Source: Limnephilus marmoratus (taxonomy: Eukaryota > Arthropoda > Insecta > Trichoptera > Limnephilidae). From it: 64,000 nt of DNA. Below are positions 1-63,623 of this stretch, one piece after another; the stretch's first letter is position 1, and every line of letters starts with the position of its first letter. The DNA lies in the NCBI GenBank assembly GCA_917880885.1, contig OU862913.1, forward strand, positions 3,286,001 through 3,350,000. The letters run 5' to 3'. Made by a program: the position numbers and the translations under genes. Below the pieces are notes generated by a model. That model had not been told where the DNA came from. It did not search any database and saw only the letters and a program-made list of their open reading frames with translations.

Positions 1-1779
1 GGCAAGTAATATTTCTGACTCTGGTTCATCTTCTTCCTCTGTGGTCTGCTGTAATGTAGAATCAAAATCAGTCAAAGCATTGAGATAATCAGATCCTGAA
101 ATAATGTTTAGACTTTCCGCACTATCTTCCTTAACACTCTTGACTTGACTGTCTGACTTATCAGTTTGGATTACATCCCCAACTGAAATATTTAGACTAT
201 CATCGGAGTGATGTTTCTTTTCAGTATTTTCATAGACTACTACATCTCTGCTTGTTGTGATTTTACGCTTCATAGGGTCATACACTCGGTAGCCTTTCAC
301 AATTTCTGCAAAACCAACAAGTATGTGTTTCCTTGACTTTGTATCCCACTTAAGTCGTTTCTCCTTTGGGATGTGGACCATTACTTGACTACCAAATATT
401 CGGATGTGCTTTAAGTCTGGTTTCTGATTTGTCCAGAGTTCGTATGGTGTTTTATTATTTAAACCTGACGCAATGGATCGATTTCTGAGATAGACTGCTG
501 TATTTGTGGCCTCTGCCCAAAACTTCTTATCTAAATCTGCGTCAAATAATAAACACCGAGCTCTCTCTACTATAGTTCTGTTGATACGTTCGCTCATACC
601 ATTTTGCTCAGGAGTATAAGCATTTGTCTTTTGATGCACAATGCCTAAATCCTTTAAAAAAATTTCAAATTCATTACTACAGAATTCTAAGCCATTGCCT
701 GTCCTAAATATTTTTATCTTTTTTATTTTGCTGATTTTCAACTAATGACTTAAATTCCTTAAAATAATTGAATACTTCACTTTTATTTTTAAGAAAGTAA
801 ACAAAAGCCATACGTGAGTAGTCATCAATATATATAAGAAAGTATCTTGATCCACCAATTGAGGTTATCTACATGGGTCCGCACACGTCCCCATGTACTA
901 GATCCAATGAATTGCTGCTTCTTGTTGCTACATGGACAAAAGGTAGTCGCGACTGCTTTCCTTCGCAACATATTGTGCAAGTACTCTTGTCAATCTTACA
1001 CTTATCTGTGTATGATATACCCGTGACTGCACCGTCTCGCATTTTATTCAAGTCATTTACATTTAAATGTCCCATTCTCCTGTGCCAGGTCACATCGTTC
1101 ACTGAAGTAGATGTAAACAAACACTGTTGATTATCTAAACTCAACTTGTAAACACCATCTATTTGTGTAGCAACTGCCACCAAATCCTTCTTTTTGTTGT
1201 AAACACGGCAACAATCATCTTTGAATTCTACACTATTGCCATTCTTTATGAGTTGACATATTGAGATCAAATTTGTGGTAAGATTAGGAACACAAAACTT
1301 CTTTCAAAGTAACCTCAAATTTGCAATTGTAGTGACTGTTATTATGTCTACACTACCAACGCACAATACAGGCATAGCACTTTGATTTGCTGCTATTATC
1401 TCCTTGATCTTTGGCGAATAAGATGCATTTTTTATTAGGTTTACACCCGGCGTCATGTGAACACTCGCACCACTTTCTAAGTAAAAATCTTTTTTACTAT
1501 AATTCCCGCTCAAGAAAACAGCCGAAAACGCATTAGTTTTCTTCATTTGTTGCTGATCATTCTGTTTACACTGCGATTTATAGTGACCGTATTGACGACA
1601 ACGGTAACACTTTATGTTATTTCTGTCAGTTTTGTTTACATTCGAACTGACCATAGACGACGAACTACGACGTTCATAGTTGGAACTGTCACTTCTGCCA
1701 GTGCTGCCAACTTTAGAATACTGTTGGCGACTGTGCTGCCCTCTACTCAAGAAAGCGCCACCACCGGAAGACGTATGTT
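1..1779 (-). pseudogene. Copia-type LTR retrotransposon fragment: integrase, protease and gag part
   Basis: Reading the minus strand from 1779 down, I see a CCHC zinc knuckle (CYRCRQYGHYKSQC), a protease-like site in which DSG reads ESG, a GAG-pre-integrase domain (WHRRMGHLNVNDL, within 869-1270), and an integrase core that continues to the window edge (IDDYSR, then an E in NGMSERINRT). The reading frame is broken: a stop follows CGPM near 868, there is a frameshift near 730, and another break lies near 1290. The second catalytic position reads GNG instead of DNG. Reverse transcriptase and RNase H would lie left of the window. The gag reading frame continues at 4432-4770 on the far side of a hAT insertion. 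The first residues of the open frame ending at 1867 come from the hAT end, not from gag. This is a dead copy, different from the copia element at 36178. Confidence 0.88.
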
Positions 1780-2829: not shown

Positions 2830-3456
2830 AGTGGATTTAAACCTTTTTCATGATCTGAATGCAGTTATACAAGTCCTCAAAACGAAGATGTAAAAGTTCA
2901 CAGTATAATTCACAGAAGAGAAAAACCTTTTTCATATCCAGATTGTAACTATTCGTGTTCTCAAAAGGGATACATAAGAAGTCAGTTGCTGACTTAGTGT
3001 GGAAAAAAACCTTTTTCATGTTTCAACTGCAACTATTCATGTACTATGAGGAGAAATCTAAAAATCACACGTTTACCGACAGTGGAAAAAACCTATTTCA
3101 TGTCCTGACTGCAACTATTCTTATTCTCGAAAAAATAACTAAAACGGCACTTGCAAACTCACAATTATGAAAAACATTTTTCTTGTCCCGACTGTAACTA
3201 TTCATGCGCTACAAAACGGTATCTAAAAATGCACATGCTTACCCATACTGGACCAAAACCTTTTTCATGTCCCGACTTCAGTAATACAAGTTTTTAAAGG
3301 GAATATTTAAAAATCCGCAGTACGACTCACAGAAGAGAAAAACCTTTTTCATGTCCTGATTGTAACTATTCGTGTTTTTAAAAGCGATACATAATAAGTC
3401 AGTTGCTGGCTCAGTTTGGAGAAAAACCTTTTTCATGTTCCAACTGCAACTATTCA
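2830..3456 (+). pseudogene. Decayed C2H2 zinc-finger repeats inside hAT copy 1
   Basis: The plus strand shows repeated units of about 84 bp translating to broken fingers of the form EKPFSCPDCNYSC..K..L..H, with stops and frameshifts in most units. Examples are near 2925, 3010, 3090, 3180, 3260 and 3345. The array resumes after the LINE insertion at 3866-4060, where the units at 3050-3180 are repeated almost unchanged. The same units, including that internal duplication, occur inverted in copy 2 at 42310-43140, so both duplication and capture predate amplification of the element. No functional protein is possible. Confidence 0.75.
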
Positions 3457-5979: not shown

Positions 5980-7094
5980 TGATTCACAGTAGAGAAAAAC
6001 CTTTTTCTCTTTCCGAGTACAACTATTCATGCTCTCGGAAGGGCAGTCTGACGATCCACAAGCTAACTCACAGTAGAGAAAAACGTTTTTCTTGTTTCGA
6101 GTGCAGAGTTTTCAGGCTCTCGAAAGAGCAGACTGACGATACACAAGCTGACTCACAGTGGAGAAAAACCTTTTTCTTGTTCTAAGTGCAACTATGCATG
6201 TTGTCAGAAGGGAGATTTGAAGAGACACATTCTGCTTCACAGTGGAGAAACACCTTTTTGTTGTTCCGAGTGCAACCATGCATGCACTCAAAAGGGCAGA
6301 CTGACGATCCACAAGTTGACTCACAGTGGAGAAAAACCTTTTTCTTGCTCCGAGTCAACTATTCATGCTCTAAAAAGGGCAGGCTGACGATGCACATGCT
6401 TACTCACAGTGGAATAAAACCTTTTTCTTTTTCCGAGTGCAAATATTCATGTTCTCAGAAGGGAGATTTGAAAAACACATACTGATTCACAGTGGTGAAA
6501 AACCTTTTTCTTGTTCCGAGTGCAACTGTTCATGCTCTCGAAAGGGCAATCTGACGATTCACAAGCTGACTCACAGTGTAGAAAAACCTTTTTGTTGTTC
6601 CGAGTGCAACTATTCATGCTCTCGAAAGGGCAGACTGACGGTCCACAAGCTGACTCACAGTGGAGAAAAACCTTTTTCTTGTTCCGAGTGCAACTATTCA
6701 TGTTCTCAAAAGGGCAGTCTGACGATCCACACGCTGACTCACGGTGGAGAAAAAGCTTTTACAAGTGTCAAGTGCAACTATTCATGTTCTCCGAAGGGAG
6801 ATTTGCATTAATACATACTGATTCACAGTGGAGAAAACCTTTTTCTTTTTCCGACTGCAACTATTAGATACCTAGATTGCTTTTTGTAGAACATGAATGT
6901 TCTACAAAAAGCAATCCGACGATTCACAGACTGACTCACAGTGGAGAAAAACCTTTTTCTTGTTCCGAGTGCAACTATTCATGTTCTCGAAAGGGCAATC
7001 TCAAGAGCCCTTCTCACGGCGGAGAAAATCTTTTTTGTTATCTGATTGCCGCTATTCGTGTTCTCAAACGAGAGATTTGAAGAAGCACGCATAA
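5980..7094 (+). pseudogene. C2H2 zinc-finger array, about 13 units, frameshifted
   Basis: Tandem units of 84 bp encode fingers with the pattern HSGEKPFSCSECNYSCSRK followed by G.LTIHKLT. About 13 units run from 5999 to 7080. Intact ones include those near 6000, 6173, 6257, 6504, 6588, 6672 and 6952. Others are broken by single-base indels (near 6105, 6350, 6475), lost cysteines (near 6756) or a stop (6810, 6864). The longest open piece, 6437-6811, has four to five fingers. No acidic amino-terminal exon of the kind found in the two intact zinc-finger genes was seen upstream. A family member of this sort would bind DNA in the nucleus; this copy looks dead. Repeat units are much more alike in DNA than is usual for old finger genes, suggesting recent tandem expansion before decay. 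Confidence 0.82.
6875..6916. repeat. Perfect 20-bp inverted repeat with 2-bp spacer in the finger array
   Basis: gattgctttttgtagaacat, then ga, then its exact reverse complement. It replaces the second half of one finger unit and part of the linker. A local template switch during replication would produce this. Confidence 0.9.
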
Positions 7095-21446: not shown

Positions 21447-23487
21447 TTATTCAGTATGAAAGCGTAAGTGCCTTGTTAAACCTGATTTGCTTGAGCAGGA
21501 GTAGTAACATTGGGGACATGAAAAAGGTTTTTCTCCAGTATGGGTGCGTAAGTGCCTTGTTAAATTTGACATCCGTGAGCAAGAGTAGTTACAATGGGAA
21601 CAAGAAAAAGGTTTTTCTCGAGTATGAGTGCGTAAGTGCACCGTTAAGCGAGATTTGTTTGAGCAGGAGTAGTTACAATGGGAACATGAATATGGTTTAT
21701 ATCCAGTATGGGCATAATAGTGCCTTGTTAAATCTGATTTTGCTGAGCAGGAGTAGTTACAATGGGGACAGGAATGAGGTTTTTCTCCAGTGTGGGTGCG
21801 TAAGTGCCTCGTTAAATGTGATTTATCTGTGCAGGAGTAGTTACAATGGGAACATGAAAAAGGATTTTCCCCAGTATGGGTGCGTAAGTGCACTGTTAAC
21901 GCTGATTTCCGTGAGCAGGTGTAGTTACAATGGGAACATGAATGAAGTTTATCTCCAGTGTGGATGCGTAAGTGCTTTGTTAAATCTGGTTTGGCTGAGC
22001 AGGAGTAGATACAATGGGGACAGGAATGAGGCTTTTCTCCCGTATGGGTACGTAAATGTCTCGTTAAATGTGATTTATCTGAGCAGGAGTAGTTACAATG
22101 GAAACAAGAATGAGGTTTTTCTCCAGGATACGTCTTCAGGTCCGTTAGCAAGTCTGAAAATAATGGCGGATATGGATTATGAAATATGAAAATTATTTAA
22201 ACAAATTCAGACAAATAAAAATCGATTTTACCAGAAGCCCTTTCAGAGTATTCAAAGCATTCCTTTTTTACATCTGTCAGGTCTATGTCTATTTCCGTAT
22301 AATGGATTCCCTCTCCATCTTCCTCTCGGGGTCCTGGTTCTACTTTAATGGGTACATTCTCCACATGTACGCTACCTGGAAAAATACGAAACAATAATAC
22401 AACGAAGAAGAGAAGTATATTAAAAATTCGTTGTGGGTCGGTTAAAACCTGGCGGATTGCTTTTTTATTGATCATGAATTGATTTTTTTCTTGGTCCCTT
22501 CCCCCCTCTTTACCTCTTCCCCCCCAGATTTCAGTTGGCACTCGTTCGAAGCAGTTCATTCGTAAAACCACATATAAAATCACATCACAATATTACGAAA
22601 TTAACTGCATTTTTCGAATGAACCCACATAACGGACAATACCTACAGCAGATGAGATATAATTACCTTTTCCCACTCTAAGTATGTTTCCCTTTTTTGAC
22701 ATTAGCTCCACACAGGAGGCCCCAAGGAAAATAATTCCCCTCAGGACCTGTGCGTCTTTGGGGATGCTGTGTGGAGGGTATTTTTAGGAAAGGAAGGAGT
22801 GGAAGTTTTGGGAAGGAAAAAAGGTATGTAGGATGGGTAAGAACCTAATCCATTCCCCCGTTTTGGGGTGCAAGGCGATGGTTAGAGTGAGTTCGGCTGG
22901 AGAAATCATAAGGTCTCCCTCAATCTGTCTCACCCGATCCGGCTGGCATCCATTAGTTGGGCATCTACTGTCAAGACCTAGACAAACCTCACCCAATGAA
23001 CACGGGCACCCCTGCTTCCTCACCAAACGTTCGAACCCCTTGGGGTGACCTATGGAATCTTTTACATAATCCAAAAGTTTTTTTTCGGACTGGAGAAAGA
23101 GATATGATTTACTTTAGTGATCAAATTTGGTGAAGCAACAACTTATATAATTAAACAACAAATAATTAGGAATAGCTTGAGGGTATAATAAATTAAACGT
23201 GGTCTTAGTTCACCAATAGCAAAATTTGGGAGTGTAAGAACAACAGAAGGAGGATACGAGGGGAAGGAGACAACAAACAGATGTTCTGACAGCGTCCATC
23301 GAACACCTGTGTGATATACGCAAGGTAACTTACTAATTGGCTGAACACTCTCGGCATACTGCAACCATTCCTTCTTTACATCCGTGTGGAGGATTTCTAC
23401 ATCCATGTACGTCATTCCACCTGAGCCTTTTTCTTGCGGCCATGGTTCAGTCTTGATGAAAACATTATATGCGTTGGGAAGATCCAT
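21447..23487 (-). CDS. Zinc-finger gene A: acidic-motif exons plus eight C2H2 fingers
   Basis: A three-exon model is supported on the minus strand: 23334-23487 (ATG at 23487), 22232-22375, 21447-22153. Splice sites are AG/GT throughout (donors gtaagt, gtaaaa; acceptors tttttccag, ttattttcag), every junction is in phase 1, and the total of 1005 nt gives 334 residues. Exons 1 and 2 each encode an acidic motif: IKTEPWPQEK..MDVEILHTDVKKEW and IKVEPGPREE..YTEIDIDLTDVKKEC. Exon 3 encodes eight C2H2 fingers (C-x2-C, H-x3-H) with TGEKPHSC-type linkers, ending HTE-stop inside a linker. A further acceptor at 23535-23536 would allow an upstream exon, again in phase 1, so the true start may be farther 5'. 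Such a protein would bind DNA in the nucleus; its target is unknown. The intron at 22376-23333 holds a dispersed repeat. I see no inactivating change. Confidence 0.85.
22690..23080. repeat. Dispersed repeat inside an intron of zinc-finger gene A
   Basis: agacctagacaaacctcacc, then accaaacgttcg recalls 48130-48165 (acctggacaaacctcactca, then ccaaacg). Spurious open frames on both strands come from this repeat. Confidence 0.4.
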
Positions 23488-25345: not shown

Positions 25346-25841
25346 TCACCGGATGTTTAAGGAAGGGCCTTAAAGAATGGATTTTTAATAAACATCTTGA
25401 AAATACCACTATTAAATAAGGGAGGAGAGGGAAATATTGCATGAGAACAAGTCGAATGCTGCTGTCATCTACTGTGGATGGATGTTCAGCTCTTGTCCGG
25501 CGAATTTCTTGCTGGTGAACCGATACCAAAGGGATCTCATCAATTTATTAACATTATCTGCTACGTGTATTGCCTAGATCTGAATAACCAGCTAGTTACC
25601 AATTTCCTCCAGACTCAAAAGCTGCTGTTTTGTTACTCTTAATTTTTCATTATTTTTGACATAGGTAAAAGCAAAGCTTAAATCTCAAAGCATAAAGCTC
25701 GAGGCAAAAATCTAATCGCTTAACATTCAAGCTTAAACTCAAAGCTTAAAGCATAATATTTAATTTCTCCCAACTATGTCTAGGATATTGCACTGGTCGT
25801 CTTCTCTCGGATTCCTTGTACTATTCAATTATAATTTTCAG

Positions 25842-26074
25842 ACGAATCTGACCACATGGCGAAGGAGCGTCTGCCCATCCGAGGCCACACATTCGATGAG
25901 CACGTGGAATCCTTCATCAGCTACTGCGCCACCACCGTGGGGCTCCAGGTCATGCAGTGGTCACGCTTGCCCTGCCTCTGCGAGGGGGACTTTAACCAGT
26001 CCTACCACTGGCTGAACGACTCCATCTTCATCATCAAAAAGGACCCAAATTTCCCCGACACCACGGCTGAATAG
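25842..26074 (+). CDS. METTL9: METTL9-like histidine methyltransferase, last exon
   Basis: After the acceptor ataattttcag (25841) the exon opens in the phase left by 25097 and encodes ESDHMAKERLPIRG, then FDEHVESF, then WSRLPCLCEGDFNQSYHWL and NDSIFII, ending at TAG (26072-26074). The RLP-x-LCEGD block followed by Y-x-L-x-D is a hallmark of the METTL9 carboxyl terminus. GC-rich codons contrast with the surrounding repeats. A polyadenylation signal aataaa occurs at 26168. Nothing suggests damage. The intron before it contains a SINE fragment. Role by family: methylation of histidine in target proteins, in cytoplasm or endomembranes depending on species. Confidence 0.88.
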
Positions 26075-33795: not shown

Positions 33796-34667
33796 CCTTA
33801 GTCTAGCCAATAATTTCCTCAAAGATGGGGAAAATTTTATTAGAAATTCTCTAGCAAATGTTTTTGTTAGTAACTACAGCGCACTCTTCATTCGCAGACA
33901 GTGACTTCAAACTAGCTATGGACACAATCATTTAATCATCTCTGATTTCCAGATCTCTTTTCCCAGTCATAGCTCCACTCATACATCCACTTCTTCAATG
34001 ATAATGTTCGCAAAGGTAACACTAAACATAAACTTCAAACAGCATCCCCATAAATGAACTAATACCATCATCCCGGTCCCGTGAGTCCGTGACTCACGGA
34101 CCGTAAGTGATATATTAATGTCAGTCTCCTTTATTTTCTCCCCACACATTTTTTGTTACTCCGCTTTCACATCATTGTTGCTCAGCCATGGGCCATGGCT
34201 CACCCTTTCTAATAGTAACATCCTATAAACTAATTGTGTTAAGTTTATATTATTAAGATTATTCCAATAATCGTCATATTTTTATATCAAAGTTTTTGTA
34301 ATTCAACTCCCACGGTACTTCACCTTGTAGTGAGTAGGTTCTTGTTATATTAACTACCTAACTTCTCATTGGCTGTGTTACCGAACCAATACTTCAAAAT
34401 CGGGAGAATTTTCACCAGGAGAAAACGGGAGAATTTCGAAGAAATCGGGAGATGACTAGAAATATTAGAACGAAATTTCGCCCTTATCAATAATCCGAAT
34501 CCCTATTATTATTCCGAAGCAACAAACGAAAAAACCCATCAGCAGCGCCGTCAATACGACTATTGTAGTTGTTGTACGTGGAATAACGCAATTTTCCCTA
34601 ACGTTCAACGGTGCCTTATTTAACATATGGCAACTCAGCACAAATTTTTGTGAAACTTCGACCTTGG
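33796..34667. other. Intergenic stretch, nothing recognised
   Basis: No coding signal. A related short motif, cgggaga, occurs three times at 34401-34451. A small palindrome lies near 34085-34100. Confidence 0.4.
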
Positions 34668-34734
34668 GGGCCGTTCAGTATAATGTAACGCAAATTGTGG
34701 GGAGGGGGGGGGGGGGAGTCCGTTCTTGGACGTC

Positions 34735-34900
34735 CCTTTTGAGAACATGAAAAGATGCAGTCGGGACACGAAAAAGGTTTTTGTTCACTATGGTTTAACG
34801 TGTGATTTTTTAGATGCCCATTGCGACAACATGTAGGTATTGTGGCTATCGCGATATGAAAAAGATTTTTCTTCTCTGCGGGTAAGTATGTGACGTTTAA
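34735..34900 (-). pseudogene. Zinc-finger repeat locus C, left part
   Basis: The minus strand shows finger remnants (EKNLFHIAIATIPTC, then EQKPFSCPDCIFSCSQKG) of the same style as those in the hAT copies. The locus continues at 35870-36177 and 40812-41160, separated by a SINE cluster and a copia element. Its outer edges at about 34668 (gccgttcagtataatgtaac) and about 41590 are inverted relatives of the flank seen at 2333 and 43630, so the finger unit may have inverted ends of its own. Confidence 0.6.
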
Positions 34901-35071
34901 GTTGTTATTTTGTGGAACATGTATATTTGCCATTATTATTTTTAATTGTAAAACTAACGTTTTTAAGACAAGATTTTTTATGCATAGCACAAAGGGTAAC
35001 AATTATTATAAGCAATAATTATCAGCCTGAAACACTCATCCACATTGAAAAATCTTCCGAGAAAAGATACA

Positions 35072-35869: not shown

Positions 35870-36177
35870 GGGGCACGACAAAGGTTTTTATCCACTAGGG
35901 GAAAACTTACGATTTTTTAGATTTATCTTCGTAGTACATGCATAGTTACACTCAGAACATAAGAAAGATTTTTCTCCACTATGAATCGCGCTGTGGCTTT
36001 TTAACTCTTCCTTTCGAAAACTTGAATAACTGCATTCGGAACAAGACAATTATTTTTGTCCGCTGTGCGTAAACATTTGATTTTTTGGTGCTTTTTTGTA
36101 GAACATGACTAGTCGCAGTGGAAACATGTAAAAGTTTTTGTGTCACTGATGATTTCTAATAAGTTCCTTTGTGAAAC
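35870..36177 (-). pseudogene. Zinc-finger repeat locus C, middle part
   Basis: Finger remnants on the minus strand (units near 35880, 35960, 36040, 36120) with stops. It stops at gaaac (36173-36177), the target duplication of the copia element, and resumes at 40812. Confidence 0.6.
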
Positions 36178-36433: not shown

Positions 36434-39400
36434 TTATTCTTCCAATTTCAACAGTTTTCTTAACTTAACAAACTTTGGCTTGCTCAAGGATTTGGTTAAT
36501 ATATCAGCAATATTTTCATCAGTATCGATCTTTACAATATCAATATTTCCATTCTCATAACTCTCATGTACGTAGTGATACTGAACCTCTATATATTTAG
36601 ATTTTTTAGAAAAATTTCCGCTTTTAGCAATTGATACCGCTCCAGAATTATCCTCATACATTTTGACTGGATCATTCAATTTAATTTTGAACACTTCACT
36701 TACTAAACCTTTCACAAACTTCAATTCAGTCAAAGCGTCAGACAATGCTACGTACTCTGCTTCAGTGGACGACTTAGTTACAGATTTTTGTTTACGAGAC
36801 TTCCAATAAACAGTATTGCCAAACAATCTTATTAAATACCCCGATGTAGACTTTCTATCATTAATATCTCCAGCCCAGTCTGAGTCTACTAAACAATCCA
36901 GTTCATCATTTTCACTTGAGCTTGAGTACAGCAATTTCAAATTTCTTGTTAAGTATAGATATTTTAGAATTCTCATCGCGTACTGGAAATGAGTCTCATT
37001 GTAACTACTCTGGAACCTACTTAAATAATTTACGCTGAAGGCGATATCTGGTCTCGTTCCAGTACTTATGTATAACAGTTCTCCAATCAAATTGCGGTAC
37101 TTGACTTGTTCATTTAATTCATCAGCTGGCTCTAGTCTCAAGTTTGTTTCCATTGGTGTATTGTACAGTTTAGCATTTTCTAAGTTATACTTTTTGGCTA
37201 AAGAATTAATATACGTTTCTTGACTTAGACCCATTACATTTGACTCGAGATCATGCTTAATGTTAATTCCGATATAATTACTCACTGGACCCATGTCCTT
37301 CATTCTGAAACGTTTAGATAATTCATCTTTCACTCTTTGCACTCTCATCAAGTCTTTGCCACATACCAACAAATCATCAACAAATATCAAAATATAAATC
37401 GGATCATTTCCCTCATTTCTCACGTACAAACAATAATCATGAGTGCTTCTTCTAAACTTTGATTCAACCATGAAACTGTGAAAACATTCGTACCATGACC
37501 TCGGACTCTCTCTCAACCCATAAAGTGATTTTCGTAATTTATAAACTTTACCGGATCCATCATCATAACCAGGAGGTTGTTTGACGTATACTTCAGACAT
37601 TATTTTTCCGTTTAAAAAGGCTGTTTCCACATCCATTTGTTCAACATTCAATTTGTTTTGACAACTATACGATAATAAAATCTTAAGAGTTTCCATTTTT
37701 GCAACTGGTGAATAAGTGTTTTCAACTTGTTCATTTTGTTGATATCCCCTTACAACCAATCTAGCTTTAAACAAATCATCAGACTTCTTTTTAAAGATCC
37801 ATTTAACATCAATAGCTTTCTTATCATCAGGTTTTTCTACTAGAATCCATGTTTCATTCTTCTCAATACAATTAATTTCTCTATTCATTGCATTTGCCCA
37901 TTCACCGGACTCTTCATGTTCAATTGCCTCTTCAAACGTATTCGGTACATCTGCATTACAACAATTTACGTACACACAGTAACTCACGAAATCGTCGTTC
38001 ACATATTTCTTATTCGGTTTTCTTTCTCGCATTGAACGTCTCACTGATACATCTTCACTTACTTTTTTGTCACTCTCATTATCTCGATTTGACTCAGCAG
38101 ACTCATAAATGGATTCATTTTTATTTTCATTTTCAACAATATCTTCCACACTATCATCAGACTCATTTGTAATCATCTCATTGTCTTGATTTTCGAACCC
38201 AATGTATTTAATATCGTTTTGAACAATATCAACGTGTCGCGCTACGATTATTTTGTTGTTTATCAAGACACGATAGCCAACTTCACAATACCCTAATAAA
38301 ATTCCCAATTTCGCTTTATCATCCCACTTTGATTTCCTCAATTGCTCTGGTGTTCGGACATAAACTCTACTCCCATACAAACGTAGATTGTTTACATTTG
38401 GTTTGACTTTAAAAAACATTTCATAAGGCGTTTTCATTTCAATGGTATTTGCAAGTGTCCTGTTTCTCAAATACGTTGCTGCTTTAATCACTTCGGGCCA
38501 ATATCGAATATTTACTTTGGCTTCTTTTAACAAACATCTAGCATTGTCCATAATTGTACGATTGAATCTCTCAGCTACCCCATTTAATTCGTGAACATAT
38601 GGCGGACAAGGCATAACTCGAATTCCCTTTTCTCTCGCAAACTGATCAATTTTCCTGTTAATAAACTCGGTGCCATTGTCACATCTCAAAATTTTTATTC
38701 TTTTCCCTGTAATGTTCTCGACTTCATTTACATAATTCACAAAGCAATCATAGACTTGATCTTTGGATTTGATACAATAAACTCTCGCCAATTTACTGTA
38801 ATCATCAATGAAACTCAAAAAATATTTTTCCCCACAATTTCCGACTGTTGGGTGAAGCCCATTAATATCTGTATGAACGATCTCTAGTACTTCAGTTGCT
38901 TGTTTTCTCTTGTTATCGAAAGGCAAATTATGCATCTTTGATTCAATACACGTAGCACATTTTAAAATCTCAGACTCTAGTTTTTTTGGCAATCCAATTA
39001 AAAGTTCTTTTTCACTTAATGTTTTTAAATAATTGAAATTTACGTGACCCAATATACGATGCCATTTTTCTTTCAAGGTCATTCCTCCATCATTACTACA
39101 AGACATTGTATTATTTACTTTACTCAATTTTCCGTCTCTCTTGATAAAGCTTGTCATGAAATACAAATTATTCTCTTTTACCGCAATAGCTATCAACTCA
39201 TTATTTTGATTATACACCTCAGAAACATCATCGTACGAAATAATTGAATTGTTCATCGTGACTTTTGCATAGCTCAGTAGATTTGATCTCATGTCACGCA
39301 CATAAAAAACATTCAACATAGTTACCATACTCTCTCTACCATTGACCACAAACAATGCTTTTACTTTACCAATTTTCGTCGCTTTCATTACTCTACCATC

Positions 39401-40486
39401 TCCTAATTTTACATCAATGGGATTTTTTAAAATTATACATTCATCGAATAATTCATCGTCATTAATAATGTGGTCAGTACATCCACTATCCAGGATCCAG
39501 ATTATTTCATTTTCATTTCTGTTCCTCTCATTCTTAATTTCAGTTTTATTCACTTGAGTCACAAAAACTTTACCAGAGTTCCCAAATTGATTTTGATCAC
39601 TACTCGACGCTGTGTTGACACTCCCATGGTATAAACCTCTGTTGCCTCTGAAGTCGCCTCTGCCTCTGTTGTTGTTATTGCCTCTGTAATGACTGTTGCC
39701 TCTGTAGCTGTTGTTCCCTCGATAATTCTTACTGCCTGGGTAACTGTATCCTCCTCTGTTTGACCGACCTCCTCGATATGTTTGATTTGACTGTCATCTG
39801 CTTCTGCATTCCCGCAATATGTGACCAGCTTTGCCGCAGTTGTAACACTTTTTCGTCTCTGTACTAAAAGCACTCGCTTTCACAGACTCATCACTATCTT
39901 TGTTCTTGTCTTTTACTTGACTTTGATTTTTTTCATATTTTAACTTTATTTTGCTTTTTAGAAATTCCACTGTTCTATCCTCTGTCGGTAAAACATCAAT
40001 CAAGTCTCCAATGTAACTATATGATTCTGGGAGAGACTTGATCAAATAATTTAATATTTCTTCGTCCTGAATTTTCGCCCCTGCGGCTTTCACTTCATTA
40101 ACCGATTATTCAAAGTCATCAAAAAATTTCTTGGTGTCTGAATAATTCACAAGTTTTATTTTTTCTAGTTCGTTTCTTTTCACAATTTGTAGGGCTGTCG
40201 ATTCTTTTAAGTACTCTCTGTCAAATTTTTTTATTATTTCAAATGTGGACGGTAGGTGCTTCACATACTCTAACTGCTTGTTCGAAATGGCACTATAAAT
40301 GTAATTTGTTGCTTGTATGTCTTTATCATTCCACTCGGTTTCATTTTCAGTTATTTGTATCTCTCTTGTGGCCACAACATAGCACTTTTTATACTGTAGG
40401 AACTTCAAAATTCGGGTTTTCCAATTTGAATAATCTTGTCCATCAAAAATTGGAATAAGCACATCATCTTGTTTCACGTACGCCAT
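36434..40486 (-). pseudogene. Copia gag-pol polyprotein, one frame with two in-frame stops
   Basis: ATG at 40486, end at 36434: 1351 codons in a single frame. Gag starts MAYVKQDDVLIPIFDG (DUF4219/UBN2 type), has a CCHC knuckle CYNCGKAGHILREC and a Gly/Arg/Asn-rich stretch (NNSYRGNSHYRG). Pol has protease DSGC, GAG-pre-integrase WHRILGHVN, integrase with HTD, RCDNGTEF and NGVAERFNR, reverse transcriptase with QMDVETAFLNG and FVDDLL, and RNase H with DSDWAGD and KSSTEAEY, ending NIADILTKSL. All catalytic residues I know to look for are present. The only breaks are TAA at 40106-40108 and TGA at 39794-39796, just after the zinc knuckle. The length from 39562 is 1042 open codons. I call it a pseudogene because of the stops, although readthrough or sequencing error remain possible. 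Confidence 0.9.
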
Positions 40487-41929: not shown

Positions 41930-44183
41930 AGTAGCTTAGCGAGGGGGGGGGGGGCTGGGGGGGGCGGACCGCCCCAGGTGCAACTCCAGGAGGGGGTGAC
42001 ACTCGAACGTGGAGAAAACTTACGAAAGTGCAAAATAACCGTAAAAAATATTAACACTAACTGTTATTTTGCTCTATGGCTTGTTTGGTCGGGGATTTCC
42101 GGAAAATGTTTTTTTTTGTTCCTAGCTCAGTCGGGGATTTTCCTGAAATATTCCTTTTGTCATTCTAATTTCGTGCGTATATTGTGATTAACGTAGACTC
42201 GTGAAGTGAATTGTTATCTATGGACTGACTTGACTTAGTTAAGAAGTTATGTTAGCGTGTTAAATAGTGCTGAAAGACCAGTTTGAAAATCAATGCAGTT
42301 AGGTGTGAATTTTTAGATACCGTTTTGTAGCGCATGAATAGTTACAGTCTGGACAAGAAAAAGGTTTTTCATCACTGTGAGTTAGCAAGTGCCGTTTCAG
42401 TTTTTTTTTTTCGAGAATAAGAATAGTTGCAGTCAGGTCATGAAATAGGTTTTTTTTCCACTGTCGGTAAACGTGTGATTTTTAGATTTCTCTTCATAGT
42501 ACATGAATAGTTGCAGTTGAAAAATGAAAAAGATTTTTCCCCACACTGAGTCAGCAACTAATTTCATATGTATCCCTTTTGAGAACACAAATAGCTACAA
42601 TCAGGACATAAAAAAAGGTTTTTCTCTTCTGTGAAACGTACTGGGGATTTTTAAATCTTTCCTTTGAAAACTTGTATTACTGCAGTCGGGACATGAAAAA
42701 GGTTTTTGTCCAGTATAAGTAAGCATGTGAATTTTAAGATACCGTTTTGTAGCGTATGAATAGTTACAGTCGGGACAAGAAAAAGGTTTTTCATCACTGT
42801 GAGTTAGCAAGTGCCGTTTTAGTTATTTTTTTCGAGAATAAGAATAGTTGCAGTCAGGACATGAAACAGGTTTTTTCCACTGTTGGTAAACGTGTGATTT
42901 TTAGATTTCTCTTCACAGTACATGAATAGTTGCAGTTGGAACATGAAAAAGTTTTTCTCCACACTGAGTCAGCAACTGACTTCTTATGTATCCCTTTTGT
43001 TAACAAGAATAGATACAATCAGGACATGAAAAAGGTTTTTCTGTTGTGTGAATCATACTGTGGACTTTTAAATCTTCGTTTTGAGGACTTGTATAACTGC
43101 ATTCAGATCATGAAAAAAGGTTGTACTCCACTCTGAGTAAGCTTATGAATCATAGTGGAGTAAAGCGTTGCTCCATATGCAAACCTTTGTAAAATTACTT
43201 TCTTCAGGGCCTCCTCAGTGTAGCTAATGTAAAACAAAATATGTGTTGTAAAACCATGTAGATGTATTAAAGGTAAGACAGTATTAAATTGTGGAGATCC
43301 GAAAGGAATAAAAGGCCGATAAAAATAATAATATTTTCCCAATTTGTTTATGAATTACAATTTAAAAAAATAAAATAAACAATACACGCAAGGGCCTATT
43401 GTGAGTTTGAAATCTCTTGTTTTATTTTTACCGCAAACGCGATTAAAACAAGAAAAAGGTATTTAAGGGACTTTCCAGTACTTTGCGCAATTTAATTGAG
43501 ACTTTTAGGTAAAAATAGTCACTTGGGTGTTACGTAACGTTTAGGGAGGTGCAGAAAAATGTTACGGCGCGTTGCATGGGGGGAGAGAGGGTAAATTTTT
43601 TTCAAAAATTGCGTTACGTTATACTTGAACGCCCCCTTTACTATTTCACGATTGAAATTTTATCGTTACACTCTGAACACAAAACTGATTTTAACCTAAG
43701 TATTGGTTATTATGTTTTCATGACAGCAAATGATTTTTTTCAGATTTTTGTAGCATATAAGAATTGAAGACTCCACACTGAACTATATTATTTGTAGCTA
43801 TATGGCTCGGTCGGTCAGCATTCCCCAAAAATTCTGTTATTTTATTTTCGTTACTAGCTCTTACTATTGATTTATTGGGGATTCCCGTGAAATATTCCTC
43901 GCTTTTCCCCTGTGTCATTCTCATTTCTTTCGTACATTTTGATTGACGGGAGCTCGCAAAGGAAATTATCACCTATCGATTTTTGAAAAAGCTGTTATTC
44001 TGTTAGTGTGTTTAATTTTGAGGACAATTTTTTTTTTTTAAATATTTGACTAGCTAGAATTGCTTTTTTTATATTTAAGGAAGTCAAAATTTGTGTTTTG
44101 AATTTCTCAAAAAAAAAATGAATGGAGGGGGGGTGACACCGCGCTTTCCGCCCCGGGTGCCACCCATGCTAGCTACGCCACTG
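41930..44183. mobile_element. Non-autonomous hAT element, copy 2, carrying zinc-finger sequence
   Basis: Ends cagtagcttagcgagg and (reverse complement) cagtggcgtagctagc. gtgacatc at 41922-41929 and 44184-44191 is a perfect 8-bp target duplication. It is collinear with copy 1 (1780-4431) in inverted orientation, including captured finger units at 42310-43140 and the leader at 43140-43640. It interrupts a ZBED5-like transposase pseudogene. Confidence 0.93.
42310..43140 (-). pseudogene. Decayed C2H2 fingers inside hAT copy 2
   Basis: The best stretch, 42601-42810, encodes HSDEKPFSCPDCNYSYATK, then RYLKIHMLTYTGQKPFSC and a broken unit. Other units (near 42420, 42500, 42850, 42940, 43030) have stops. 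The spacing of about 84 bp matches the other arrays. Confidence 0.75.
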
Positions 44184-44605
44184 GTGACATCTGTGTTGAA
44201 AGGGTCTAATATCCAATTTTTATTTATGTCCGAGTACAAAAATATTCCGAAACTAAGACCTGCGCGGAGGTGTTTAATCATTTATCATTCCGCCTTGTAC
44301 TTGTGTTGGCAACATTGCTCCACCAGAGGATTCCAAAAACGCTGACAGTATAGGAAAGTGATATATTTTTTAATTGTTTGATTTGTCCAAAGGTCAAGCC
44401 TTTTTAGCATCGTTTCAATTTTATCTTCAACTTGGAAGGTGTCACCTCTCCCTTGTAGACCCAAGTTGAGCTAGTTAAGGGCACTAAAGATATCAGCTAA
44501 ATATACTGCTATCATGAACCACCCAAAGTCAACCAAGTGAGCAACATGTTTGTTGACGCTGCCTACAGAATTCTTCAAAAATAACATTCTGATCTCAGGA
44601 GTAAA
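44184..44605 (-). pseudogene. hAT (ZBED5/FAM200-like) transposase pseudogene, middle part
   Basis: The minus strand reads FTPEIRMLFLKNSVGS, then AVYLADIFSALN-stop, LNLGLQGRGDTFQVEDKIE and LKRLDLW, then further left GLSFGIFLYSDINKNWIL. LADIF-x-x-LN-x-LN-x-x-LQG is a strong signature of the ZBED5/FAM200 branch of hAT-derived proteins. The frame joins the part at 41640-41929 across hAT copy 2. Confidence 0.78.
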
Positions 44606-47600
44606 ACGAAGGATGATTATATAAATGTAATGACATCGCTAAACTATAAATCATTTATAAATAATCCAACACGGAATGTCAGCGGACAAATTCCTACCTG
44701 CATCGATCACATATGGTGCAACTCAAATAACAATGAAAAAAACATGTCAATATTATGGAAAACCAGCACAACCGATCACTACACCTGTATATTTATTACC
44801 AACATTGATAAAAGAAGTAACAACTCTAATACAACTGACAAAAAAAAATATGAAAAAAAACATCTAAATATGGAAATTTTAAGAACAAATCTTAAAACGG
44901 AAACCTGGGCATCAATATTTGAATCGGAAAATCCAAATACCTGTGCTGAGAATTTCGAAACAGTTTTCCAAAACCACATAAACCTATCCACACAAATAAT
45001 TGTTACCAAACCAAAATCTAAGCACAGATTAATAAAGCCATGGATAACCCATGGACTAGTGATTTCAATCAGAAATAAAGAAAAATACTACCACCAGTCA
45101 AAAAAATTCCCTAATGATGAAAAAATAAACACCTTCTACAAGAAATACCGTAACAAACTTGCGCTTTTAATAAGACTGACAAAAGAAAAATATTTTCGTA
45201 ATAAAATAAAAAATGCTGGTCAAGACAGCAAAGAGTTTTGGAAAATCATCAATACAATAACCAATAAAAGCACAAAAAAAAAATTACCAAAAGAAATTAC
45301 TCATCACGGAATCAACACTGACACCGAAAAAAATGCAAAACTGTGCGGTAACATTTATAATGAATATTTTACTAATGTCGGCCCTAATCTTGCGCGTAAT
45401 ATTATCCTAGACAACAAACAAACACAACAACCTGAGCACAACTCAACTATTGAAGAAGGCTTCCACACATTTGCTTCGGTAACTGATAAAGAAGTCGAAA
45501 ACGCTGTAATAAGTCTACGGGGATCAGCAAGCCCTGGCTATGACAATATAACCGTAAAAACATTAAAAGCCGTTCATGAGATAATCAGTAAACCGATTGC
45601 TCATATAATAAATGTAAGTCTAAAGAAGGGTATATTCCCGAACAACTATAAGAAGACTATTGTCACCCCTGTTTTCAAATCTGGAGATGAAAAAAATATT
45701 TCCAACTATCGTCCCATAGCACTCACATCAAACATTGCAAAAATCTACGAAAAAATTGTTAAAAAACAACTCAACAATTACATAAAAGAAAAAAAGATAA
45801 TGAGCCCAAACCAATTTGGGTTTAGGGACAATCTCAGCACTCAAGATGCAATTGCTAAATTAACTTCAACAATAATACAAAATTTAGATAATGGAGAAAA
45901 GTGTCTTGGTATATTCATCGACCTACGCAAGGCATTTGATAGCATATCACACTCCAAACTCAATGAGAAACTCATGCAAATTGGATTGGACGGAACAGTA
46001 CTGTCATGGTTCCAAAGTTATCTAAAAGAGAGATTTCAATACGTCAAAATAAATGATACCCTAAGTGAACCCAAAACCTCATCATTTGGTATACCGCAAG
46101 GAACTGTCATCGGTCCAATCCTTTTTATTATATATGTTAATCAAATGTTCACTCTTCCCATAGTTGGAGATATCATATCTTATGCAGACGACACAGTAGT
46201 TATCACTAAAGGGAAATCATGGGAGGAAACGATGAGTAAAGCAAATACAAATATAAACATACTCAAAACATGGTTTGACCTAAATTGTCTCTCACTAAAT
46301 ACAGAGAAAACTTATTTTATTCCATTCTCTTTGAAAGAAAAAAATGTCGAGAACAATATAACTATTAAAATCCATTCATCACAGTGTGAAAATAAAAAGG
46401 AATGCAACGATGACAATTGTCTACAAATAACATGCAAAAATAGTATTAAGTATCTGGGTGTCATTGTAGACAAACACTTAAAATGGAACGAACAAGTCGA
46501 AAATACGGTAACCAGAGTAAGAAAACTTATTTACATATTCATTAGATTGAGAAACATTCTATCATCTAGTATGATTAAAACTGTTTATTTCTCTCTTGCC
46601 CAATCTATTCTAGAATATGGTATAATCGGGTGGGGGGGAACTTTCAAAACTAACCTCCAACCTGTGGAAAGGGTACAGAGGTTGATTCTAAAAGTTATCA
46701 CACGTAAACCATCTTTATTTCCAACAATACAACTATTTAATTCTTTTAGGGTACTCAGTTTAAATAAAATTTTCAAAAAGAACACTCTGTTACAAACACA
46801 CAAAGATCATTTTAATTCTACAACAACAATCACAAAAATAAGTAACCGTTCAAGATCACGTGGTAATCTAGAAATCCCTAAATTTAATACGAGTGCTTTT
46901 CAACAACATTATACTTATAAAGGTATAAAATTTTTTAACGCCCTCCCATATAAAATCAAATCCGAAGAAAATTATAAAGTCTTTAAATCACTAATTAAAC
47001 AACTGCTTGATCAACCAAACACTAATTATAAGTTTTAATTTCAAAGAAAGAATTTCTACGTATATTTTTTGATTACAATGTACTAATTAGTAAAAATTGA
47101 TCAAGTCTTAATTATAATTTTATGTACTTTATTTCAAAATTAATCACTTAACTCCATCATTAATTAACAAAAAATAAATTATAAATTAATGTAGTCTTAT
47201 TGATTGCACATATCCTCTTAAAATATTTCATCAACTTTTGAACTGAAATGTAAGCGATTATTGTCGTAAAATAACATTATGTACCTACTCCTGCAATATT
47301 ATCAGTTAATCCCATTGTCAGAATGGGATATATGTACTTACCATCTCAACACCTACCTATTAAGAGAAATGCAATAATATTATTTTTATTTTTACTACAT
47401 CTATTGTATATTATTACTTTTAAAATATCTATACTACATGTATATCTAATTTAGCAACTGCCACGTTAGTATATTTCTTTATTTAATATTTTGTTTTTAT
47501 TCATAAGTTTTATTTGTTTCTTAATTTAAAAAAAAAAATATATATAAGTATATCTTATTTTTTTTTTATCTTTTTTCTGTAATGACACGACTCCCCAATT

Positions 47601-55930: not shown

Positions 55931-56237
55931 TTGTATGAAACATATAGGTTAAGCATAAATATAAACATTAAGAGTACATACTTAATATAAGAAATTGTCA
56001 ATAAAATTAATGCCACATTGTTATTATAATACCTGTAACTTGTAAAAATAAACAATAAAAATAATAAAGAGTTATTGTAAGTTCCAAAACCTGATCCTAT
56101 GATTATGAAGCATACTAAAAGCACATACCTACGTAAATGAAAAATGAACAGTAAAAATGGTAATATTATGATGGTTATGTTTGAATTTTTTTTTTTATGG
56201 TAATATTTTAATATTTTGGTGGTAATATTTTGAAGTT

Positions 56238-60644: not shown

Positions 60645-60936
60645 AATATGTATTGTAACAGTAAGTGCATCAGAATGGCATTTCTTAAGTATGAGTGCGT
60701 TTGTGTGTAGTTAAAGCGGATTTCTGTGAACAAGAATAGTTGCAATAAGAGCACAAGAATGGTTTTTCTTTGGTATGAGTTCGAATGTGTGTAATTAAGT
60801 ATGGTTTCCGTGAACATGCATAGTTACAGTAAATGTAAGAAAATAGTTTTTCTTTAGTATGAGTGTCTATATGTGTATTTAAGCTTGTCTTCTGTGAACA
60901 TGAATATTTACAAAAAGAGCATGAGAATGGTTTTTA
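60645..60936 (-). pseudogene. Zinc fingers downstream of the gene B stop, still in frame
   Basis: After the paired stops TAA TAA at the end of gene B, three finger units follow in the same frame (FSCSFCKYSCSQKTSL, FSYIYCNYACSRKPYL, FLCSYCNYSCSQKSAL), then HT-stop-EMPF. The stops sit in linkers, where AAA and GAA codons became TAA. The earlier protein therefore had at least three more fingers. Confidence 0.75.
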
Positions 60937-63623
60937 TTAAGTATGAGTAAGGTTGTGTCTAGTTAAATGTGATTTGTGAGCAAATGAAGAGTTACAATAA
61001 GAGCATAAAAATGTTGTTTTTTCGGTATGAGTGCGAATGTGTTTAATTAAGCGGGCTTTTATTGAACATAGAAAGTTACAGTAAGAGCAAGAGAACGGTT
61101 TTTCATCATTATGTGTGCGCGTGTGTCTAGTTAAGCTTGACTTCCGTGAACATAAATAGTTACAGTATGAGCAAGAAAATGGTTTTTCTTTAGTATGAGT
61201 AAGGTTGTGACTAGATAAGATTGATTTCTGTGAAAATGAAGAGTTACAGTAAGAGCATGAGAATGGTTTTTCTTTAGTATGTGTGCGGGTGTGTCTAGTT
61301 AAGCTCGACTTCTGTGAACATGAATAATTACAGTATGAGCAAGAAAATGGTTTTACTTTAGAATGAATAAGGTTGTGTCTCGTTAAATGTGATTTGTGAG
61401 CAAATGAAGAGTTACAGTAAGAGCATGAGAATGGCTTTTCTTTGGAATGAGTGAGTAAATGAGCAACTAGGCCAACCTTTAAACCAAGTTTTCTGTCACA
61501 CAAAGAACAAGGGAAAGGTTTTAAATTGTAAAATTCTTCTTTATCGCGCTTTTGTTGAACAGAAATGATGTTATTTATTCCGAATGATGCACCTGGAAGA
61601 GAAAAAAAACTAATCAATACTCTCGTTACAGTGTGCATGCGTTTGCTTCTGAATGTGTAAAATTAACAAAAAATAAATATTTGTTAAAAAAGATACTTAT
61701 TTTTAAATATATTTCCTAAGGACAATCGAGTTAATCAATCCCAAGGTATTAGTTTGTCATTCTTTCACGTCACAATGGAGCGACCGATCGACAAGATGTT
61801 TTGCATAGGGCGGGCTGGGAAGTGCAATAAGTTACTTTTCATACCGAAAAGAACATTTCATTCCCGTGGGAAACTTATTTTTACAGTAATGTCTCCATAA
61901 CACCACACCTCATTATTAATTCGATAAGCTGTAAGAAAATAAAGTATCTGTACGCTTCTCCCTTTGTATCTACTTTGTTTATTTTATAAAATAAAGGTGT
62001 TTTAATTTGAAATTGAAGAACGTCAGGTCACTCTGCATGCTATGGAGAATCAAATAAGACAAAATGGAGACCATAGTATGTATGCTCGTTGACCCAAAAA
62101 GGTTTACTCTACAACCAAAGGCAAAGAAAACCTTAATGAAAACCTCCCTCCCCGCAAAACTTGGTTTGTTCCCCTCACCAGTAAGAACATGTAAAAAAGT
62201 GCATAAAAGTGAAGACAGACAAATTAATTTTTTACCCGTTCGTATTTTGTAAAACAGAAAGGAAACTGATAAATATTTTGATCGTAGCACCTGGAAATCT
62301 GATAAAATTATTCGAGGCCCAAGGCCAAACCTATAAGTTAGTGTATTTTTGATTTTTTTTAAGTATTTTGAATTTACTTTGTTCATTTTCTGACATCAGA
62401 CCGTGTGGTAGGTTATTCTAAAAATTTGGACTCAACGCATCAAATACCCTGACTCAAAAAAGCATAATTAAAATAAATGGTTTTACCCGCCGTTTGACAA
62501 CTTCTGTCAGAGTTCTCCGAGCATTCCTGTTTAATGTCTGGGAGTTCAATGTCAATTTCTGAATACAAAATTGCAGTTTCATTTGCTTCTTTAATCTCTG
62601 GTTCTTCTTTGATGGTAACGCTCTCCGGAAGAGAATGCTCTGTTGAATTTTTTTTATCTGATAACAATTTTTTTTACATAAAATTGGATATACTACTTGT
62701 GAGTACTTAATTGTCAAGAATAAAACTAATATAACATCGAAAATAAAACTTCGGTTTAAGCATAACTACATTGGCATGCTCAAGGTCGCATTCATCTCAA
62801 CCGTTCATATAATGTCAAATATGTTAGAACAGTTCAACTATAAGGTTCAAATCAAACAAATTTCGGAAAAAAATCGGTGTTTGGGCGAAATTCCTAAAAA
62901 ATAAAACTAGTTATTTTTATACTAATTTGGGGTCGGGGAATCCGAATCTGAAAGAATTAGGCGGCGGCAAGCAATATTAACTGAATTACACGACTTTAAA
63001 ATTTTCTATACACACACACATGAAAATAATCATTTCGGAAGTATTTTGACACACGAAGTACAAGGTCACGAAGTTTCTATGATCTTTGTACTTCGTGTGT
63101 CAAAATACTTCCGAAATGATTATTTTCATGTGTGTGCGTATAGAAAATTTTTAAAGTCGTGTAATTTTGTTAATATTGCTTGCCGCCGCCTAATTCCTTC
63201 AGATTCGGATTCCCCGACCCCAAATTAGTATAAAAATAACTAGTTTTATTTTTTAGGAATTTCGCCCAAATACCGAACTTTAGCCCAAATTTCTTCCGGA
63301 CAAAAAGTGGCAATACGAAAGGAGATGTTGTTGTGTTCGGTGAGGTTAGGTTCAAATTGACATGCACGGTGCGCGATCATGAACATGTCGATACAGCCAT
63401 GCAAAACCTCTAATTATTACTAAATAATTTTAAATTACATTTTGCGCCTGTTTAACAGTTATGTATCAAAATTGTACAATAAAATACCTGGAATATTTTC
63501 CCAAATAGATTCTGAACATTCTCCCTTGATCAAAGGATAGTCTATATCGATTTTTGTATATGTCACAGCGACGCTCTCTTCCGAACTTGTACCTGGTTCT
63601 AACTTGATAGTGGTGGAATCCAT
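60937..63623 (-). CDS. Zinc-finger gene B: acidic-motif exons plus seven C2H2 fingers
   Basis: Three exons on the minus strand: 63488-63623 (ATG at 63623), 62487-62657, 60937-61592. Splice sites are AG/GT (donors ccag|gtattt, gcgg|gtaaaa; acceptors gttatcag, tctcttccag), all junctions are phase 1, and the 963 nt give 320 residues. Exon 1 encodes IKLEPGTSSEE..YTKIDIDYPLIKGEC. Exon 2 encodes IKEEPEIKEA..YSEIDIELPDIKQEC. Exon 3 encodes a short linker and seven fingers, the first FPCSLCDRKLGLKVGLVAH and the rest FSCSYCN-type with KEKP linkers. It ends at a double stop inside a linker. The design matches gene A. A DNA-binding nuclear protein is expected; target unknown. Intron 1 holds the palindrome at 62865-63303. 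The start codon is the first ATG of the exon; no in-frame extension with signal was seen. Confidence 0.87.
61640..62486. other. Intron 2 of gene B, nothing else recognised
   Basis: AT-rich; the open frames at 61979 (minus) and 62064 (plus) overlap in opposite directions and have no motif. Confidence 0.4.
62865..63303. repeat. Near-perfect palindrome of about 440 bp in intron 1 of gene B
   Basis: Left arm about 62865-63064 and right arm about 63084-63303 are inverted copies (gggcgaaattcctaaaaaat, then ggggtcggggaatccgaatc, then cggcggcaagcaatatta) with a loop of about 20 nt. A transcript of gene B would fold here into a long hairpin. It is probably a MITE or foldback element; no clear target duplication was found. 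Confidence 0.88.

Follow-up and report, generated by a model that had tools for sequence, protein, structure and literature searches.

Two C2H2 zinc-finger genes, A and B, on the minus strand of a 64,000-nucleotide stretch of the Limnephilus marmoratus genome (Trichoptera; contig OU862913.1, positions 3,286,001 to 3,350,000; hereafter, the window) are each headed by two exons encoding copies of one homologous module. In this genome, the module, usually one copy per exon, stands at the head of a zinc-finger family that is very large and has multiplied recently. It reads as about 45 residues in which a Y-T-E-I-D-I core is preceded by a psi-K-x-E-P site and an acidic spacer and followed by a second site, psi-K-x-E-C, psi-K-x-E being the SUMO-acceptor consensus. 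We propose, with moderate confidence and from its sequence, that it constitutes a disordered SUMO-acceptor effector exon of a rapidly diversifying family resembling the KRAB zinc-finger proteins (ZNFs) and that it recruits SUMO-dependent repressors. Effector modules, such as KRAB, SCAN, BTB, ZAD, and FiNZ, define the workings of large lineage-specific zinc-finger families; the KRAB domain, for instance, heads mammalian genes that silence mobile DNA. If the module is indeed a SUMO-acceptor cassette, it would offer a direct insect route from DNA-binding proteins to SUMO-dependent heterochromatin, a simple rule for effector dosage in the form of the copy number of a symmetrical exon, and a hint as to why unrelated ZNF families keep evolving acidic, psi-K-x-E-rich leaders.

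The module and its exons in genes A and B

The exon models of the two genes, which are readings of the sequence known from the DNA letters alone, are as follows.

23334..23487, minus strand: gene A exon 1, coding part from the ATG, 154 coding nt, with module A1 (IKTEP ... YMDVEIL ... DVKKEW) and a phase-1 donor (sequence reading, alignment)
22232..22375, minus strand: gene A exon 2, 144 nt, phase 1-1, with module A2 (IKVEP ... YTEIDID ... DVKKEC) (sequence reading, alignment)
21447..22153, minus strand: gene A finger exon, with eight C2H2 fingers, differing chiefly at helix positions -1, 3, and 6, and the stop (Pfam, regular expression)
63488..63623, minus strand: gene B exon 1, coding part from the ATG, 136 coding nt, with module B1 (IKLEP ... 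YTKIDID ... LIKGEC) and a phase-1 donor (sequence reading, alignment)
62487..62657, minus strand: gene B exon 2, 171 nt, phase 1-1, with module B2 (IKEEP ... YSEIDIE ... DIKQEC) (sequence reading, alignment)
60937..61592, minus strand: gene B finger exon through the first in-frame stop, with seven C2H2 fingers (regular expression)
60655..60936, minus strand: second in-frame stop of gene B and further finger remnants (sequence reading)

All four introns are bounded by GT...AG, and both middle exons are symmetrical, as the original prediction had claimed. The fingers of gene A are recognized by Pfam as PF00096/PF13465 and are arranged in tandem with TGEKP-type linkers. Gene B may be shortened or decaying, since its finger exon contains two in-frame stops after the seven matched fingers. 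Intron 1 of gene B also harbors a foldback element (62855-63295) resembling a miniature inverted-repeat transposable element, with 151-nt arms that are 93% complementary and a nested inverted repeat of 69 nt. Just downstream, the gene B fingers are adjoined by an open frame with an RVT_1 domain, like that of a long interspersed nuclear element (LINE).

An alignment of the four modules yielded eight invariant columns (I, K, E, P, Y, I, K, and E). The prediction that the four exons share one layout was borne out by leave-one-out profiles, in which three copies recovered the fourth in every case with E values of 7e-18 to 3e-6 (24 to 62 bits), whereas the best score among 5,000 shuffles of each left-out copy was at most 14.2 bits. 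The predicted Y-[TS]-[EK] wording of the core fits three of the copies literally but fails for A1, which reads Y-M-D-V-E-I-L. Given a pairwise nucleotide identity of 41 to 62%, the four copies look like old duplicates in which the protein pattern has been retained. No fifth copy was found in the six frames of the window, the next best match having an E value of 0.3, or 0.24 with a larger profile.

Module copies, selection, and finger diversity across the genome

We searched the window's own genome (1.63 Gb in 67 contigs; the window corresponds to C8:3286001-3350000) with modules A2 and B2. The best 150 of 5,342 first-look candidates for A2 all had E values of ≤4.1e-15 and identities of 70 to 100%, the entry with 100% being the window copy itself, and none contained an internal stop. 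With B2, scoring of 150 of 4,959 candidates gave 151 matches, of which 150 were listed at E values of ≤2.6e-5; an internal stop occurred in only two of these. The two lists do not overlap and hence define at least 300 distinct module places, which form 272 groups separated by more than 6 kb; as only the best 150 candidates were scored per search, this copy number is a lower bound. Most of the listed places lie on the window's chromosome, C8 (247, of which 232 fall within its first 21.2 Mb), followed by C2 (41), C24 (4), C22 (3), C29 (2), and C17, C6, and C30 (1 each). Duplicates, including those at distant sites, are up to 99.8% identical over 3 kb, and some copies are near contig ends (C2 at 74.4-74.6 of 75.6 Mb and C29 at 32.2 of 32.3 Mb).

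Fifty loci from the A2 list were read, the best 30 with flanks of 1.5 kb and the 20 that followed with flanks of 4 kb. In all 50, a C2H2 array lies close downstream of the module on the same strand, with an open frame that begins within about 0.5 kb of the module or runs through it; in some loci (e.g., L009 and L020), module and fingers share one open frame. Thus, the KRAB-ZNF-type layout, with a putative effector exon upstream of the finger exon, was seen in each of these loci. Besides the 50 modules that the search had found, the loci contain 22 linked ones upstream, for a total of 72. A second module was seen upstream in 21 loci, among them 11 of the 20 with 4-kb flanks; one of the 21 (L051) has three.

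With the best pyrimidine-backed AG called as the acceptor and the first open GT as the donor, the search-found copies have phase-1 acceptors in 46 of 50 cases and phase-1 donors in 47, and the corresponding counts for all modules are 66 and 68 of 72; the phase 1-1 symmetry predicted from the window therefore extends to the family. The acceptor count is less meaningful for the linked copies because 15 of the 22, which start with MDL[PTS]N in frame directly before the module, look like first coding exons. Of the other seven linked copies, one starts with MELPN, four resemble middle exons, and two are truncated where the locus ends. Four further places on other chromosomes were picked from the B2 list, and at two of them (L052 and L054) fingers follow the module. 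At another, L053 on C24, a single open frame (reverse strand, 1664-2053) encodes three tandem modules with a 129-nt period, which reads as a duplication of the module inside an exon.

To compare copies, 70 module cores (45 unique) were extracted, two partial copies of the 72 being dropped. The first site retains I, K, and E in all 70 and P in 68 around a free x (1.5 bits), and the second retains V/L and K in 70, E in 68, and C/W in 69 (C in 67). Between the sites, the core retains Y in 66, I in 66, I in 69, D in 67, and V in 69. The extraction pattern demanded [IV]K.[ES] at the first site; hence, conservation there is partly imposed, while that of the second site is not. The 20 full-length linked modules, which were not selected by the search, all have the first site, and 19 of them have the second. 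The module is under purifying selection: the ratio of nonsynonymous to synonymous substitution rates (dN/dS) is 0.26 over 815 pairs with 0<dS<1 and 0.32 over 526 pairs with dS<0.4.

The fingers present a different picture. Across 453 fingers from the 50 arrays, entropy reaches 3.41, 3.21, and 2.54 bits at helix positions -1, 3, and 6, respectively, and is at most 1.91 bits elsewhere, with position 2 nearly fixed as S (0.77 bits). We counted 177 contact quadruplets, and the contact string is unique in 38 of the 50 arrays. In 16 near-identical array pairs, the proportion of nonsynonymous to synonymous changes (pN/pS) is 1.17 at positions -1, 3, and 6 versus 0.50 in the framework, the former value being based on 33 nonsynonymous and 7 synonymous contact changes in pairs that are not independent. 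Taking the diversity at contact positions together with the conservation of the module, we conclude that DNA specificity diversifies in proteins whose module is kept constant. One array, that of L040, has seven successive fingers with the identical contact set RFDL, perhaps from recent internal expansion.

Proposed SUMO acceptance and the alternative readings

Each of the four window modules contains two psi-K-x-E motifs, a number that reshuffling of their residues reaches in 0.2 to 0.9% of cases, so that the consensus occurs beyond chance. Of the 158 lysines in 49 unique modules, 96 fall in psi-K-x-E, and 41 of the 62 others are the neighboring K of V/L-K-K-E. The resemblance to SUMO-acceptor sites that had been suggested for the window modules thus gains indirect support, short of proof, from the near invariance of psi, K, and E around a free x. 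SUMO synergy-control motifs, [IV]KxE with flanking prolines, offer a parallel: the first site of the module, I-K-x-E-P, has its proline in 68 of 70 cores, whereas the second has C or W rather than P after the E, the likeness being one of sequence. Two structure models were of low confidence (predicted local distance difference test scores of 71.7 and 69.7; predicted template modeling [pTM] scores of 0.24 and 0.17), which is consistent with disorder, and we consider the module to be probably mostly disordered.

Similar motifs are seen in other zinc-finger leaders. Among 116 of 120 fetched finger-matched proteins (four had no usable leader), psi-K-x-E occurs 93 times before the first finger in 42 ZNFs without a Pfam KRAB label, against 12.9 expected by shuffling, and 26 times, against 28.1 expected, in 74 ZNFs with the label, counts drawn from a set that includes many orthologues and in which some unlabeled frog proteins may carry a divergent KRAB. 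Reversed and K-to-R control motifs were not enriched in either group. It is possible that this approximately sevenfold enrichment reflects a general rule.

Studies of other repressors point to how such sites might act. The available parts of two papers report that SUMOylated transcription factors direct the dMec complex to DNA (PMC7272611) and that the TIF1 protein Bonus acts via Mi-2 and SetDB1, its SUMOylation working, according to the title, by recruiting repressive complexes (PMC10672805). By analogy with these, we infer that the zinc-finger protein itself would be the SUMOylated factor. In the mechanism that we propose, the fingers would choose the DNA targets and diversify at the contact residues, and the paired lysines of the module would become SUMO modified. 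The SUMO groups, multiplied by the number of exons, might then recruit SUMO-reading repressors of the MEP-1/Mi-2 (dMec) and SetDB1-Windei type, which would silence chromatin, most plausibly at transposable elements. As gain or loss of a phase 1-1 exon leaves the reading frame intact, the strength of repression could be tunable by the count of SUMO sites. A more tentative, if still serious, possibility is that the family is an independent insect counterpart of the KRAB-ZNFs, with hundreds of fast-diversifying repressors, largely from about 21 Mb of one chromosome, that use a disordered SUMO-acceptor effector exon, to which certain fish leaders (see below) would be convergent.

Several points weigh against the SUMO-acceptor reading. 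The psi-K-x-E consensus alone is no proof of modification, and SUMO acceptance leaves the conservation of the Y-T-E-I-D-I core unexplained; for this stretch we claim no SUMO-interacting motif because only 6 of the 49 unique modules meet the canonical pattern ([VIL]x[VIL][VIL] or [VIL][VIL]x[VIL] beside acidic residues). The C-terminal helix of one structure model is not matched in the other, on which DSSP gave no output. The 50 loci read were the highest-ranked entries of a single search list rather than a random sample, and in 29 of them a second module was not seen within the stretch read. The original prediction that the module precedes C2H2 arrays, which held in all 50 and at two of the four further places, was not borne out within the 4 kb read at L053 and L055, which contained no finger array. 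The copies and proteins compared are related, so that counts are not independent, and part of the conservation is due to recent copying, given duplicates of up to 99.8% identity. As to transposons, when the SUMOylated repressor Bonus was lost, transposon levels rose in only 6 of 207 families with one driver, according to the available part of the Bonus paper (PMC10672805), and the available part of another states that Drosophila ZAD-ZNFs appear not to target transposons and that ZNFs and transposable elements are not correlated in dipterans (PMC10547256).

Four other explanations were considered. First, the module might bind a specific folded partner, a corepressor or a TIF1/Bonus-like protein, using its entire Y-T-E-I-D-I ... 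D-V-K-K-E-C stretch as a strand or helix, much as KRAB binds KAP1, with the resemblance to SUMO sites being secondary. This would account for a core almost as conserved as the sites that flank it (Y, I, D, V, and C in 66 to 69 of 70 copies), but the pTM scores indicate no confident fold and the x of the first motif is free, as in SUMO sites; we regard this explanation as rather unlikely.

Second, the module could be an acidic transcription-activation domain combining acidic with aromatic or hydrophobic residues, its lysines being incidental. The net negative charge (median 7), the conserved Y, I, V, C, and following L/Y residues, and the helix of one structure model would suit such a role. However, the second model shows no counterpart of that helix, and the two lysines, both in a psi-K-x-E setting in which the x of the first site is free, rank with the most conserved residues. 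Activation domains are not generally known to need invariant lysines. We therefore deem an activation domain improbable.

Third, one could view the family as a passively amplified segmental repeat, largely pseudogenic and devoid of any role in an arms race. The near-identical 3-kb copies, also at distant sites, the location of some of them near the ends of C2 and C29, the in-frame stops of gene B, and the surroundings rich in transposable elements are all compatible with it. Yet all 150 A2-type matches (from a score that favors intact copies) and 148 of the 150 listed B2-type matches are free of stops, the dN/dS of the module is 0.26, and high entropy in the fingers is limited to the contact positions, which makes passive amplification a still more doubtful account. 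Finally, a compositional coincidence among unrelated acidic stretches, the outcome that would have undone the original prediction and of which an 18-residue match in a bacterial efflux pump is a chance instance, was not seen in the loci read and is as good as refuted by the leave-one-out tests, the at least 300 places in the same genome, and the shared exon phases.

Known zinc-finger systems, database searches, and surroundings

In layout and dynamics, the family resembles the KRAB-ZNFs and FiNZ-ZNFs, and by its sequence it belongs to neither the KRAB nor the ZAD group. Like the KRAB-ZNFs of tetrapods, which act with KAP1/SETDB1, it has an exon-encoded, N-terminal acidic effector before a finger exon, and its genes are clustered and recently duplicated, with fingers varying at contact residues. 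It differs in that its module lacks KRAB homology, can be repeated on separate symmetrical exons, and is built around psi-K-x-E sites, of which the KRAB-labeled proteins show none above chance. ZAD, a cysteine-rich zinc-binding fold, likewise heads expanded C2H2 genes of insects as an N-terminal module, whereas our modules usually have one cysteine and no Pfam match.

FiNZ, like the module, has K-x-E repeats. The FiNZ-ZNFs of cyprinid fish number about 700 genes in zebrafish, and their knockdown derepresses transposons, as described in the available part of Wells et al. 2023 (PMC10547256); there, FiNZ is a short, acidic, Glu-rich leader without a known domain, encoded by an exon upstream of the finger exon, and differs from the module, with which it was compared by description alone, in having 28 residues on one exon and in being restricted to cyprinids. 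Other fish ZNFs (P0009, P0042, P0093, and P0106) have leaders with repeated IKEE/VKTE; P0009, P0093, and P0106 are examples with several psi-K-x-E motifs in an acidic stretch before the C2H2 fingers and no Pfam KRAB label. None of these aligns significantly with the module (the best score over 120 proteins being 3.2 bits), and the likeness looks convergent. A survey of silkworm C2H2 proteins found BTB and did not find KRAB or SCAN, in the part of it available (PMC6613534).

The original prediction recognized no named domain in the module, and database searches agree. Pfam returned no family for the four window modules or for a set of 16 (E≤10 and E≤1). On this basis, homology to KRAB (PF01352) was rejected, as was a ZAD fold, the core having a single conserved cysteine. 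In the PDB, the best match to a four-copy profile had an E value of 0.34, and a 16-copy profile found nothing at E≤1. Region searches of 5.8 billion proteins, which need shared exact words and a similar protein length, yielded no relative among 12 word-sharing candidates at E≤1e-3 (proteins of about 184-584 aa) or among 28 at E≤10 (about 219-698 aa). A whole-protein search matched 7,724 proteins, through the fingers among the matches listed, and the module was absent from the 120 listed (best E value, 0.54; best score, 3.2 bits; none significant). The collection includes lepidopteran ZNFs, from Cydia, Maniola, and Dendrolimus. Genes this repetitive may be masked before annotation; with no relative in the protein collection at the sensitivity and lengths searched, the module may flag genes that are readily lost as repeats.

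Pattern searches of viral contigs gave 34 and 48 matches, none of which was confirmed. Among 88 pattern matches in bacterial and archaeal contigs, the sole confirmed one proved to be the 18-residue chance match mentioned above, in an RND efflux gene, and was rejected. In the literature, as judged by titles and the beginnings of abstracts, we found no description of such a module or of a lepidopteran ZNF megacluster.

The remainder of the window is dense in retroelements, comprising one long Copia-type open frame (RVT_2 and integrase), one SH3_retrovirus fragment, and four LINE-like open frames with RVT_1. These and the other features of the window are listed below.

36440-39793 (minus), 53075-55948 (minus), 44585-47035 (plus), 59237-60505 (minus), 57765-58334 (plus), and 4-741 (minus): retroelements (Pfam)
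25835-26071, plus strand: 3' exon of a DREV/METTL9-type methyltransferase gene, between the zinc-finger loci (Pfam PF05219)
3184-3246, 6178-6742 (plus), 34616-35002, 35981-36043, and 42293-42861 (minus): scattered, degenerate C2H2 finger relics, with no module found nearby

The scattered relics suggest a turnover of finger genes.
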